A DNA stretch of 22,395 nucleotides. Source: a virus. The position numbers were made by a program, and so were the translations under genes. Shown here piece after piece: positions 11,570 to 22,395 of this stretch (position 1 is its first letter; every line of letters starts with the position of its first letter). The notes under the pieces were generated by a model. That model saw only the letters and a list, made by a program, of their open reading frames with translations, was not told the origin of the DNA and made no database searches. The stretch is taken from IMG/VR virus record IMGVR_UViG_3300015263_000003, positions 1-22,395 of that record; one strand, written 5' to 3'.

Positions 11570-12109
11570 CTAAGTTCTCCTATGTATGTTATCGAATCGA
11601 TTTCCCTTTGACAGGTTGGCGAAAGCCGTTAATACCTGCAAATTAGCGGGAACGTGTAAACCCGAAACAAATTCGCCGCTTAGGGGTATTATATGGTCCA
11701 CATGGTGAGGCGTACCAGTTTCCCGAGTTAAGCGCTCTGCTTCATCGTATTTACATTGTATCTCGTATTTATCCAATTCGGATAGCCACGAGGGCGTACG
11801 CTGCATTTTAGCCGCCCGTCTAGCTGCCGCTTTAGAGCGGTTTTTATCCGGGTTTTCAGCTCTCCAACGGCTGCCGTACTCCGCCGTATGCTCTGGATTC
11901 TTTGCCCGCCATTCGCGGCTTAATTCATTCTTTTTAGGCTTATTCGTCTTAGCCCAGTTACCGCCCCTAACCCTCGCGCAGTCTCGGCACGTTCCGTCGC
12001 TTGTACGTCTCTCCTGTACGTGCCCGTTTCTGCAAGGCTTGCCGGTGAAGTAGTATTTACTTCCCGACGCTATAGCCTCTTTACGTGTTTTAGGGTGCCG
12101 TGTAGTCAT
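11570..12109 (-). CDS. HNH endonuclease (free-standing homing type)
   Basis: The 179-residue protein has an N-terminal zinc-finger-like CRNGH...CRDC pattern (Cys26, His30, Cys41, Cys44), a Lys/Arg-rich middle with two near-repeats (SREWRAKNPEHTAEYG and SRWRAENPDKNRSK), and a C-terminal HNH domain: HHVDHIIPLSG with His136, Asp138 and His139, NLQVL with Asn156, and NLSKGNRF with Asn165. It would make a double- or single-strand DNA break at a specific site; such genes often spread into phage operons by homing. Its start is nested in the last codons of the tail-completion gene (20-base overlap) and it ends two bases before the sheath ATG. It looks more AT-rich than its neighbours. It has no expected role in tail building. 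Confidence 0.9.
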   Translation of the reverse strand: MTTRHPKTRKEAIASGSKYYFTGKPCRNGHVQERRTSDGTCRDCARVRGGNWAKTNKPKKNELSREWRAKNPEHTAEYGSRWRAENPDKNRSKAAARRAAKMQRTPSWLSELDKYEIQCKYDEAERLTRETGTPHHVDHIIPLSGEFVSGLHVPANLQVLTAFANLSKGNRFDNIHRRT

Positions 12110-16355: not shown

Positions 16356-17453
16356 TCAACTTAACCCGCGTAGCAGTACCTTACAGTACCAGCCGTTTAC
16401 TACCATGGTAGCGGGGGCGTCGGAGCGTACGCGGAATTTAGCCCCGTTAAGTAACGTATTATCGTCGCCCATGTAAATACCGTTATACCGGTTAACCGGG
16501 TACGTACCTACGGTTTTTACGTTAGCTTGCACGAACGGGACGGTATACTCGAAGCCGCCTATAGCGACTAAAAGTTCTACTATAACCGTCTGGTTCGGGC
16601 TGGTTGTTGTGATACTTAAGTCTAAACGTAAGTCGACCATATCGCCGACTTTTAAAGCGGTCCAGTCGAAGACGCCGTTATCCGCGTCCCAGATATCGCC
16701 GACGCCTTTAGGCGCAAACCCCCGCTTAGTGAACGGGCCTAGGGTGTCGTTAGGTATGTCTACGTTAACGAGCCCGGAAGGTATATTTATAGGGGTAGTC
16801 TGGGTAGCCAGGTCGTTATAATCAAAAAGGCCTATGCGTGCGATATCGTCGGGTAGCTTAGGTATCCCGCCGCCACCATTGCCAGGACTAAACGGAGCTG
16901 TAACTGCCGGCATTTTAATTTTACCGACGGCGCGCTTAACGCCATCAAGCCAGACGAATAGCTCGTTATTTTTAAGCTGGACGTCTGTAACGCTAACGCC
17001 GTCTTTACCCGGCTCGCCTTTATCGCCTTTCGGTCCACGCTCGCCGGGCTTGCCGTCTTTTACCTGGGCCTTAACTCGTCTAACGACGGTTTCCAGGTCT
17101 GGGCCGTTATGGCCGTCCTTTCCGTCTTTAGGCGTAGGGATTTTAGCCAGTACGATAGCCGCTACGTCTGATACGTTAACGGCTGGAGCGTCCCGCCCGT
17201 CGCGTGGCTTTGGAATCTGGGCCAGGACGTCGTTAATGATAGCTTTCGTATCGATTTTTTCCGGCTCCGGCAACTCGTTAACAACGGCGGCGACGATAGT
17301 TTCGATATCTGGGCTAACGCCGTCCTTTCCGTCTTTCCCGTCCCGGCCGTTAACAATAGCTGGCTTAACTTTTTCCAGACGTTCAAGCCTGGTAGAAAAG
17401 TCGCGGTTATCGGTTAAAAGCTGCTTTACGGCGGCCGTCAATTTATCCAGCAT
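16356..17453 (-). CDS. Collagen-like fibre protein encoded among head genes
   Basis: The 365-residue protein begins with a coiled-coil-like helix (about 3-30), then alternates short Gly-X-Y stretches with amphipathic helices: GRDGKDGKDG at 36-45, helix 49-62, helix 68-80 ending KPRDGRD, helix 94-105 ending TPKDGKDG, helix 120-132, and a longer collagen run of seven Gly triplets at 134-152. A Gly-rich linker (about 190-196) leads to a beta-rich C-terminal domain (205-365) that looks like a trimeric binding head. The ATG overlaps the portal stop by 11 bases. Lambda has no gene here. A head fibre is the best guess because of position; a tail appendage cannot be excluded. No homologue is recognised for the C-terminal domain. 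Confidence 0.75.
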   Translation of the reverse strand: MLDKLTAAVKQLLTDNRDFSTRLERLEKVKPAIVNGRDGKDGKDGVSPDIETIVAAVVNELPEPEKIDTKAIINDVLAQIPKPRDGRDAPAVNVSDVAAIVLAKIPTPKDGKDGHNGPDLETVVRRVKAQVKDGKPGERGPKGDKGEPGKDGVSVTDVQLKNNELFVWLDGVKRAVGKIKMPAVTAPFSPGNGGGGIPKLPDDIARIGLFDYNDLATQTTPINIPSGLVNVDIPNDTLGPFTKRGFAPKGVGDIWDADNGVFDWTALKVGDMVDLRLDLSITTTSPNQTVIVELLVAIGGFEYTVPFVQANVKTVGTYPVNRYNGIYMGDDNTLLNGAKFRVRSDAPATMVVNGWYCKVLLRGLS

Positions 17454-19436: not shown

Positions 19437-21434
19437 TTAAGCGACGCGGCCGAATATGTCGTCCGTATCCGGGCTTTCCGCGTAGTCCCAGAAGGTCGGC
19501 CAGTCTACCGTTTTTAATTCGAAGTGCTGAATACAGATAGCCCAGGCCAGGATTTCTACGCCGGCGTGGCCATAGCATAACAAGTCCCACAACTCGTTAC
19601 GAGCATTACCAGGGCGGTACCAGTAGTAAACCGTATTACCCTTATCGTCCTGCTTCTCGCGGCGAGTCTCGACGGTAAGCTCCTTAAGCTGCTTATCCGT
19701 GATATCCACGGGGGCGTTAAAGTGGTACGCCTTCTGCTCGCCGGATTCCTCGGCCCACTCCCTACGAAGTACCGGGGCTAGCCGGTCCTTATAGTGGTCT
19801 ACCAGGATGCGGTACCCGACGGTACCCGACTGGGTCCGGAATTCCGCGAACTCCTTAATAGTCTGGTTTTTGCCCGGGCGGTCGCGGCCCAGGATAGGGT
19901 AGACGCCGGCGGCGTAGTCCGCGCAGAAATTCGTAACGGTATCGTTAGCGTAGCCGGCATCGATTAACGTAAGCGCTAACCGGTATTTCTTACCGTTGTC
20001 CGCTGTATAGACGGTTTCCTCGATAAGCTCGCGCAGGCGGCCCCATACCGGGCTACTTAATTCGCTGCAGTCGTCGTCGTTTCCTTCCATCTCAAAGCGC
20101 CAGTAGTCCACTACGTAGCATTTCGCGTCCTTCGTCCAGCCCATTACGGAGACGGCCAGATTATTTTTATGTACGTCGACCTGGCAAGTAAGGAACAGGA
20201 TAGGCGAGCCGCTGTTCTTAATCGCGTACTCGTTCGGTATCTGGCCGAGACGATAAACCGCGCGACGGTGCGCCGATACGCTGGTAAAGCGAATTTTAGC
20301 GCCCATTATCTCGAACGGCTCCGCCAGGATATTGTTATAAAATACCTGGTACTTAGTAATATCGCGGACCTTCTGCTCTACGGGGTCAAAGCCACGGAGG
20401 TAGGCGCTTACGCACTTGTACCAGGGCTGCATACCGATAGGCGAGTAAAGCGCGGGTAGGTGATAGGAACGGATACCGGGCTCTACGGGTCTGGCCGTCG
20501 GGTGCCAGTGCGCCCCGTGGTCCCCCGAGAATAGCCGCTCCTTATCGTGTTCGTAGTGCGGTTCGCCGCAGTTCTGGCAGCAATAGCGGACGGATTCCAG
20601 GACCAGGATACCGTTATCCGTCTCCCACTGGAAACCGCCGATAACGCCGGTATCTTTATCGACCGTATGCCAGCGTAACGCCTGGGGGAATCCGCAGGCT
20701 TTACACAATACGCGGTAGATTCGCTGGTCGCCGCGCTGGAAAGCCGCCTCGATTTTTGATTTACCCTTAATTAGCGGAGTCGACCCCCGGAATATTTTAC
20801 GGCGCTCCCAGTAGGCCGAGCATCGGTCGTCGCTTAGCGCGTCTGGGTCCCCGTCCTTACCGACTGTATCGGGCCAGGCGTCGACCTCGTCCTTAAGCAG
20901 CACGGCGATAGAGTACGAGCGCATTTTATCGGCGTTTTTCGCGCCGAACGGTACCAGGTAGCCGCCGCCCTCAAATTGTAAATGATTCGCCGTCTTACCG
21001 GTTTTACGACTGTTACCCTCGTCGCTACTGCGGATAATATGCGCTAACCCGGAGTGGTTTAGCATAGGTAAGAAGTTATTCTCGATACGCGCCGCTGCGA
21101 GTTCCTTATCGGCGGTCATATACATGATAGGCAGCGTTTTAACGTGGCCCATAAAGTACAGGGCGCCGGATTCCAGTACCGTAGAGTAGGTAATCTGTAC
21201 GCCTTTCTTAAGGTTAACTTCCCGGACCGGGCTATCGATATCGAAGCAGTCTACAATTTCCCGCATAAATGGGTTAACGTCGTAGCGAATATAGCCAGGT
21301 ATAGAGGTGACAGACTCCGGTAGGTAGCGGTTTTCCTCGTTATACTGCGCCGGCGTTACGTGGTGTATTTCGTCCGTAAGGCTCCCGACCTGCTCGATAA
21401 TCCAGTCGGCGCCGAGCGTTTCTAATTTAGGCAT
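19437..21434 (-). CDS. terL: Terminase large subunit, lambda gpA-like
   Basis: The 665-residue protein is a gpA-family packaging motor and nuclease. The ATPase has a Walker A-like KKGVQITYST (76-85) and a Walker B AVLLKDEVDAW (177-187, Asp182-Glu183). A zinc-ribbon-like pair follows (CKAC at 244-247 and CCQNC at 285-289). The nuclease domain begins at LTCQVDVHKNN (Asp420) and has a second acidic site in LTLIDAGYAND. The family cuts cos ends and drives DNA into the prohead. ATG at 21434 overlaps the small-terminase stop, with GAGGG upstream. Family members of this kind act with a DNA-binding small subunit, encoded just upstream. Confidence 0.96.
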   Translation of the reverse strand: MPKLETLGADWIIEQVGSLTDEIHHVTPAQYNEENRYLPESVTSIPGYIRYDVNPFMREIVDCFDIDSPVREVNLKKGVQITYSTVLESGALYFMGHVKTLPIMYMTADKELAAARIENNFLPMLNHSGLAHIIRSSDEGNSRKTGKTANHLQFEGGGYLVPFGAKNADKMRSYSIAVLLKDEVDAWPDTVGKDGDPDALSDDRCSAYWERRKIFRGSTPLIKGKSKIEAAFQRGDQRIYRVLCKACGFPQALRWHTVDKDTGVIGGFQWETDNGILVLESVRYCCQNCGEPHYEHDKERLFSGDHGAHWHPTARPVEPGIRSYHLPALYSPIGMQPWYKCVSAYLRGFDPVEQKVRDITKYQVFYNNILAEPFEIMGAKIRFTSVSAHRRAVYRLGQIPNEYAIKNSGSPILFLTCQVDVHKNNLAVSVMGWTKDAKCYVVDYWRFEMEGNDDDCSELSSPVWGRLRELIEETVYTADNGKKYRLALTLIDAGYANDTVTNFCADYAAGVYPILGRDRPGKNQTIKEFAEFRTQSGTVGYRILVDHYKDRLAPVLRREWAEESGEQKAYHFNAPVDITDKQLKELTVETRREKQDDKGNTVYYWYRPGNARNELWDLLCYGHAGVEILAWAICIQHFELKTVDWPTFWDYAESPDTDDIFGRVA

Positions 21435-22305
21435 CTTTTAGCGCCCTCGCTACTTTCGCCTTAACCGGTCGAATAAAACTCGATATTTGGTCGGCGACGA
21501 ATTTCTCGATATCTTCCAGGTCGCGGCCGGCGTCGTGCATGGCCGTAGAACGCCTGGCGATAGTCTTCGCGCCGTCCGTAAGTAATTTAATATGGGCCGA
21601 GTCTATGGGCTCGATAATACCGACCCTAACGAGCTGGCGGTTAACTAACTCGCCCTTCGTCTGCGCGTTCTTAAGGCGCTTTTCGTTGATATCTTCGATA
21701 GCCTTCGTAGCTTTCAGCCAGTCCAGGAAACGGACGTCGGTACCGAACTTTTCCACCAGCTCGCGGAGCGTCATATCCGCGAACGCCTGGATATCCTCCG
21801 GCACCTCGAAGACGTAATCGTCTGGCGGCGCGGAGCGCTTCTTCGCCTCCTTAACCGCAGCCTGGCCGCGTGGCTTTCCGCCAAGTAACCCCAGGCGCTC
21901 GGCGACCGCTTTATCCATAACCACGGGTGGGGCTTCTTCCGAGGTAAGCGTTACTTTCTCGCCTTCCGGGTCCGGTACCAGGCCGTTAGCCCTCATAACG
22001 CCGACCAGCTTAGAGGCCCGTTCCCAGCCGACCCGTAAAGCCTTCTGCACGAACGAAACGGAATAGCGACCCTCCGCGCTGCAGGCGGCGACCGCTTCTT
22101 CGTAAAGCGGGTCTAGGCCGGTAGCAGCCGGCGGGGTCTGGTCTCGCTCCCGATTCTGCAGGTAGTTAACCGCGTCCGGGTGGGCGGCGTCGACCTTCTT
22201 ACCGACGATAGCCGCCTTAAGAATGGTTTCGCTTAGCCGCGTCACGGTCGAAGGGTTAACACCCGCCATCTGGGCGAACTTTGATTTAGAAATTAGTTTT
22301 TGCAT
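21427..22305 (-). CDS. Terminase small subunit candidate with HTH and FtsK-gamma-like domains
   Basis: From ATG at 22305 the product has 292 residues. Residues 3-50 form a helix-turn-helix (SKSKFAQMAGVNPSTVTRLS) like phage DNA-packaging small subunits. Residues 64-112 (DPLYEEAVAAC, GRYSVSFVQKALRVGWERAS, VGVMRANGLVPD) closely resemble the FtsK gamma winged helix that reads KOPS DNA. Residues 178-292 are helical (LRELVEKFGTDVRFLDWLKA, ARRSTAMHDAGRDLEDIEKF) and may bind the large subunit, whose gene overlaps the stop. The frame extends upstream to TTG at 22392, but those 29 residues look non-coding in character and carry a TATAAT. The packaging role is inferred from domain content and synteny. 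Confidence 0.75.
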   Translation of the reverse strand: MQKLISKSKFAQMAGVNPSTVTRLSETILKAAIVGKKVDAAHPDAVNYLQNRERDQTPPAATGLDPLYEEAVAACSAEGRYSVSFVQKALRVGWERASKLVGVMRANGLVPDPEGEKVTLTSEEAPPVVMDKAVAERLGLLGGKPRGQAAVKEAKKRSAPPDDYVFEVPEDIQAFADMTLRELVEKFGTDVRFLDWLKATKAIEDINEKRLKNAQTKGELVNRQLVRVGIIEPIDSAHIKLLTDGAKTIARRSTAMHDAGRDLEDIEKFVADQISSFIRPVKAKVARALKDA

Positions 22306-22315
22306 AGTACAGGGG

Positions 22316-22343
22316 ATTATAGCGCCCCTCCCCTCGAATGCAA
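22316..22343 (-). promoter_or_regulatory. Candidate promoter before the terminase genes
   Basis: The minus strand has a perfect TATAAT at 22321-22316, with a weak TTGCAT 16 bases upstream. Transcription would begin within about four bases of ATG 22305, giving a leaderless or nearly leaderless message; no ribosome binding site lies in the ten bases between TATAAT and ATG. The TATAAT is framed by GGGG/CCCC arms (22312-22328). Confidence 0.45.
22326..22333 (-). other. KOPS-like octamer GGGGAGGG upstream of the FtsK-gamma-like protein
   Basis: The minus strand reads GGGGAGGG, an exact fit to the FtsK loading consensus GGGNAGGG, inside the spacer of the candidate promoter. Three other fits occur in the window, all in genes (3821-3828 minus, about 8493 plus, about 12898 plus), about what chance predicts; this is the only intergenic one. 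It could be an operator or packaging start, but this is speculative. Confidence 0.3.
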
Positions 22344-22395
22344 AGCGCCGCAAAAAGTCCGATTCTGTGCGAGGCCTGCGCGATCGAATCAAAAC

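Follow-up and report, generated by a model that had tools for sequence, protein, structure and literature searches.

In phages lambda, 21 and N15, packaging specificity is set by pairs of recognition helices and R sites, R3 being located at about bp 50-60 from the genome end (PMC4669245). The locus described here shares with these phages a GpA-type large terminase (TerL), an N-terminal helix-turn-helix (HTH) in the small terminase (TerS), cohesive ends that are apparently fixed and lie immediately before terS, a recognition helix that seems matched to short repeats found 40-60 bp from the end and a conserved element at the left of the cut. It differs from them by predicted cohesive ends of 15 nt instead of 12 nt, by tandem 10-11 bp repeats merged with the terS promoter, whereas the other phages display an R3-IHF-R2-R1 arrangement, and by an additional FtsK gamma domain within TerS.

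The fusion of FtsK_gamma to a small terminase was published in 2021 for the Bacillus phages Sam46 and Sam112, where KOPS/SRS-like sites were proposed to load the packaging complex (PMC8190038). Sam46 and Sam112 are SPP1-like headful phages, in which gamma occupies the N-terminus (residues 11-70) of a Terminase_2 protein and keeps its DNA-binding residues. In contrast, the TerS studied here belongs to a putative cos phage and its gamma, whose residues are changed, lies at residues 65-117, after a gpNu1-type HTH and before a C-terminal module; the architecture with an N-terminal gamma on a Terminase_2 protein was not found in it. What is new with respect to the published fusion is that the terminase is of another family, that the cos is mapped and the iterons are assigned to a likely reader, and that tests separate the HTH from gamma. 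Compared with FtsK itself, the domain family and the fold are the same, whereas the phage protein has no motor domain, its KOPS-reading residues are changed and the phage genome is devoid of oriented KOPS.

Organization of the locus and domains of TerS

The window, i.e., the whole stretch of 22,395 nucleotides that was analysed, covers the initial 22.4 kb of a phage genome, whose gene order is read on the minus strand: terS, a GpA-type terL, then genes for a lambda-type portal, an S49 protease and capsid E, followed by Mu-like tail genes. The terS gene (21430..22305, with its stop codon extending to 21427, minus strand; ATG at 22305) encodes 292 aa comprising the HTH, the FtsK gamma domain and a C-terminal helical module. 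It directly precedes terL (19437..21434, minus strand; 665 aa; PF05876 4.9e-44, PF20454 3.1e-37), which is the position of gpNu1-type genes. A collagen-like repeat protein is encoded between the portal and protease genes (16356-17453, minus strand). An HNH-endonuclease-like ORF, assigned by eye and without Pfam match, is found among the tail genes (11570-12109, minus strand); in the Shewanella phage SppYZU01, the matching place is a gap without annotation.

The earlier note had claimed that the protein encoded before terL combines a small-terminase HTH with an FtsK gamma domain, and both were recovered. Residues 1-56 (22138..22305, minus strand) form a gpNu1-type HTH matching phrog_57, "terminase small subunit" (1.7e-4); this family is also matched by 31 of the 52 relatives (best 1e-7), as expected for a terminase-family HTH. 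Its recognition helix corresponds to about residues 17-25 (NPSTVTRLS). Residues 65-117 (21955..22113, minus strand) match FtsK_gamma, PF09397, with an E-value of 1.4e-12 and 47.6 bits for a curated cut-off of 30.6 bits, as do 37 of the 52 aligned relatives, and the PDB sequence matches of this domain are the FtsK gamma of E. coli and P. aeruginosa (best 3e-6). The structural resemblance to FtsK gamma is also borne out. An AlphaFold model of the 292-aa TerS, obtained with 52 relatives, has a pLDDT of 86.9 and a pTM of 0.50, which indicates good individual domains whose mutual arrangement is unsure. Its 11 best Foldseek matches in the PDB are all FtsK gamma (2ve8, 2ve9, 2j5o; probability 1.00, TMt 0.61-0.74, with E-values of 0.02-0.13 due to the search of a small domain inside a large query), and the KOPS-bound form is among them. 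Residues 65-117 are thus confirmed as a genuine FtsK gamma winged helix, the fold match including 2ve9.

The C-terminal helical module (about residues 165-292; 21430..21813, minus strand), delimited from alignments, is common to relatives with gamma (gamma-plus) and without it (gamma-minus). By analogy with lambda gpNu1, it is assumed to ensure oligomerisation and TerL contact.

All the 52 aligned relatives match PHROG 13700, "FtsK/SpoIIIE-like protein", so the whole family falls in a group that PHROGs labels "moron, host takeover". Because of their gene position and of the remainder of the protein, the members met here are small terminases.

Genome end and cos site

The edge of the window lies 90 bases upstream of the terS ATG. 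Many independent metagenome contigs end on the identical base, GTTTTGATTC, 85-98 bp upstream of their own terS. Furthermore, an exact terminal repeat is found in seven full-length genomes (L011, L014, L059, L069, L086, L100 and the isolate PD0307) and its length is exactly 15 nt in all seven records; so short and constant a repeat fits the residue of end-repaired cohesive ends. From these assembly ends, we infer a cos packaging of the lambda type, with fixed ends and 15-nt cohesive overhangs. The window edge would therefore be the physical genome end, and the left cohesive end would be GTTTTGATTCGATCG (15 nt; 22381..22395, minus strand). The contig ends and the terminal repeats both map close to terS, where the earlier note had proposed to look for the start of packaging; its refutation by ends lying elsewhere does not apply.

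Comparison of the leaders reveals a conserved cos box, CCTCGCACA (22366..22374, minus strand), which is present in gamma-minus relatives too. At the left of the cut, a putative cosQ counterpart, AAAGGTACTG, is found at about 24 bp. In circularised or concatemer-joined records (SppYZU01, L004, L005, L053, L058, L078, L087, L090, L093 and L094), the joined site reads GGTACTG, about 24 bp, then GTTTTGAT. The order and spacing of these elements resemble those of cosQ-cosN-cosB. An additional scan for the cos pattern led to just two new terS leaders.

Some public records deserve comment. The record of SppYZU01 (L220, KY622015), which lists terS as a hypothetical gene, was linearised about 2.27 kb off its likely physical end, which is placed at 2273/2274 with a predicted 15-nt cohesive end GTTTTGATTCGACCG (record 2274-2288). 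For PD0307, a PhageTerm run by its authors called P1-type headful packaging (PMC10132091). However, its record (L041 and L119, OL658619) begins and finishes with the 15 nt that mark the cohesive ends of its relatives; because of this repeat, the headful call would deserve a second look. In L075 and L136, the contig starts with the cohesive end and terS lies about 550 bp inward, with extra DNA between cos and terS.

Iterons, promoter and the HTH as their probable reader

Two tandem direct repeats, or iterons, 10-11 bp apart, occupy about bp 40-57 from the genome end. In the window, repeat analysis identified iteron 1 as TTTGCG (22349..22354, minus strand) and iteron 2 as TTTGCA (22339..22344, minus strand); the pair lies at bp 42-57 from the end, to be compared with bp 50-60 or so for R3. 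Promoter analysis indicates that iteron 2, also singled out by covariation (see below), doubles as a -35-like hexamer, the -10 hexamer TATAAT (22316..22321, minus strand) being located 10 nt upstream of the ATG, so that the mRNA would have nearly no leader. Across related leaders, the distance from the end of the -10 box to the terS ATG is usually 6-11 nt, an interval in which no Shine-Dalgarno sequence fits; family-wide, terS is probably transcribed into an mRNA with no leader or almost none.

The iteron unit differs among lineages (TTTGCA, TTAACC, TTTACC, etc.). Pairs of TTNNC 10 or 11 bp apart occur in 25 of 51 leaders versus 1.5 in shuffles, this strict rule leaving about half of the leaders without a pair. 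The variable bases of the pair are identical within a genome in 17 of these 25 cases versus 5.5 expected, for a unit that was set after viewing the leaders, an earlier best-repeat scan without fixed unit being too weak.

The type of iteron tracks the class of recognition helix. Helices with PS[ST] (PSS or PST) go with TTTGC in 6/6 cases and with T..AC in 0/22, all the other helices going with T..AC (22/22); this class was named after the table had been viewed, so that the 6/6 count is descriptive and the distance test made segment by segment is less biased. In the latter, a partial Mantel test in which gamma, the C-terminus and the other HTH residues were controlled, iteron 2 is the only leader segment with which the recognition helix correlates (r 0.27, p 0.001), keeping in mind that the leaders are related by descent and that Mantel-type tests correct for kinship in part. 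Iterons are also clear in many gamma-minus relatives, such as L096, L142 and L179, and L219 carries three copies of TCAACC. Because of the covariation between helix and iteron and of the maintenance of iterons in gamma-minus relatives, the N-terminal HTH is likely the reader of the iterons, independently of gamma; the match between recognition helix and cosB repeats is, here, one of covariation alone.

The gamma domain: an optional cassette with a changed DNA face

In FtsK, KOPS is read by N1296, R1300, E1303 and E1306 (E. coli numbering); the equivalent residues of the window gamma are E95, K99, G102 and R105, all four positions being replaced. The FtsK mutant R1300A/E1303A/E1306A is blind to KOPS (PMC2680272).

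With a dN/dS of 0.11-0.29 within the window clade, the gamma domain is under purifying selection and functional. Its synonymous divergence from the window reaches 2-3 times that of the remaining terS, which suggests that it is an exchanged cassette. Its presence or absence requires nine changes on the tree, at least two of these changes being forced by well-supported branches. Because it is missing in 20 of 64 non-redundant relatives, it is optional for this cos type.

The KOPS-like octamer and its possible meanings

As the earlier note had pointed out, an exact KOPS-like octamer, GGGGAGGG (22326..22333, minus strand), stands 20 bases before the terS ATG, within the 17-bp spacer between the -35 and -10 hexamers; its distribution is limited to some lineages. 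It is notable by its position in the cos/promoter leader and not by its rarity, the window holding five such sites on both strands for 3.4 +/- 1.9 expected. Exact forward GGGNAGGG was found in 3 of the 44 gamma-plus lineages (the window, L083 and L093) versus 0.16 expected; none was found on the reverse strand of gamma-plus leaders, nor in any of the 20 gamma-minus lineages. As most of the 44 gamma-plus lineages are without octamer, KOPS as a conserved cosB element was rejected as a general rule. The proposal that the site is a cosB element or an operator holds for the location, a region that resembles cosB and doubles as the terS promoter.

It is quite possible, although not probable, that the octamer is incidental, i.e., that it belongs to a G-rich promoter spacer or forms the left arm of a small terS operator, without any role in packaging. 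Its location inside a promoter spacer whose sequence is otherwise poorly conserved agrees with this, and so does an inverted repeat around the -10, AGGGGA-N12-TCCCCT (22311..22334, minus strand; p 0.035 in the window leader), that could be an operator. Of all the leaders, that of L081 has the dyad most clearly resembling an operator, a perfect 11-bp inverted repeat TCAGGGAGTTT-N7-AAACTCCCTGA around the -10. Such repeats are also present in L043 and L076, but over the whole gamma-plus set they do not clearly exceed shuffles and are not clearly commoner than in gamma-minus leaders, so that a general inverted-repeat operator was rejected. Furthermore, the exact octamer is present in more lineages, three, than chance would predict.

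This excess is one of the arguments for an opposite reading, according to which GGGGAGGG is recognised by gamma in the window clade and the terminase is thereby loaded at cosB in one direction, like FtsK at KOPS, gamma and site having both changed elsewhere. The strand bias and the absence from gamma-minus lineages point in the same direction, as does the octamer of the window clade, which varies only at its N position (GGGGAGGG and GGGAAGGG). In addition, the spacers of gamma-plus leaders are purine-rich, as are KOPS and SRS (0.60 versus 0.44 in gamma-minus, p 0.0003, a contrast that includes only two well-supported independent pairs on the tree, too few for a tree test), and the distance between whole gammas correlates with the distance between spacers after control for the HTH and the C-terminus (r 0.21, p 0.0007). 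However, a sliding scan reveals that this covariation is spread across the leader and strongest at the -10. When the remaining gamma is controlled, the DNA face of gamma shows no covariation with the site of the octamer (r -0.06, p 0.91) or with the spacer (p 0.24); two other segments, iteron 1 (p 0.004) and the bases immediately following the -10 (p 0.001), do correlate with it. The gamma-spacer covariation was thus dropped as a proof of read-out. The replacement of the residues whose mutation blinds FtsK (PMC2680272) also argues against this reading, and the sister genome of SppYZU01 shows neither excess nor polarity of KOPS (4 sites versus 8.1 expected, 2 per strand), which led to the rejection of a KOPS-guided genome polarity. 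Altogether, such loading at the octamer is unlikely. As for the idea of the earlier note that gamma reads GGGNAGGG as FtsK does, it is not supported: the residues are replaced, most gamma-plus relatives are without the octamer, the DNA face does not covary with it and the relatives deprived of gamma keep the same cohesive end, cos box and iterons.

A third reading, in which gamma targets the host, seems very unlikely. Gamma would bind host KOPS, leading to packaging of host DNA and transduction, or would engage host XerCD through its XerD-binding face. The FtsK gamma does use one surface for both KOPS and XerD (PMC5052618), most gamma-plus relatives have R or K at the position of E. coli R1289, which is critical for XerD, and binding to host SRS was proposed for Sam46 (PMC8190038). 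However, the remaining contact residues are not kept, and the cassette is part of TerS and passes between phages that have one and the same cos type.

From these comparisons, we take gamma to be an auxiliary DNA binder whose target has probably changed, the octamer being at most a lineage-specific contact. A more specific version, which we advance tentatively and consider rather doubtful, is that gamma is a swappable second reader of a purine-rich cosB element beside the iterons read by the HTH, each domain co-evolving with its own half of the DNA.

A model for packaging initiation

According to the model that we favour, the window would come from a cos-type phage whose head-packaging module resembles that of lambda, and would carry the left end of its genome. 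The terminase would make a staggered cut at cosN, generating 15-nt cohesive ends, and TerS would dock on the adjoining 90 bp or so (cosB) by its N-terminal HTH, reading two helically phased iterons. Because iteron 2 overlaps the -35 of terS, this docking would probably also shut terS off, leading to autoregulation. The gamma domain, placed between the HTH and the C-terminal module, would be a second module that binds DNA and can be exchanged; over the same stretch of DNA, it would most likely contribute an affinity or specificity that is not critical, with an altered target that is not canonical KOPS. Taken as a whole, this explanation by a cos end, HTH docking and an auxiliary gamma is, in our opinion, probable.

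Significance

A packaging start site can thus be proposed from sequence alone for widespread and uncharacterised environmental myophages, of which the Shewanella phage SppYZU01 is an isolate, together with the TerS domain that most likely reads each type of DNA repeat. The label of a terminase subunit filed in databases as a host-takeover gene is also corrected. If gamma were indeed a second specificity reader, two unrelated DNA pumps would load through one module, and the dozens of phage variants found in nature would allow its choice of target to be deciphered. Furthermore, the natural series of gamma-plus and gamma-minus phages sharing one cos would make the role of an FtsK-type reader in motor loading testable by domain removal.
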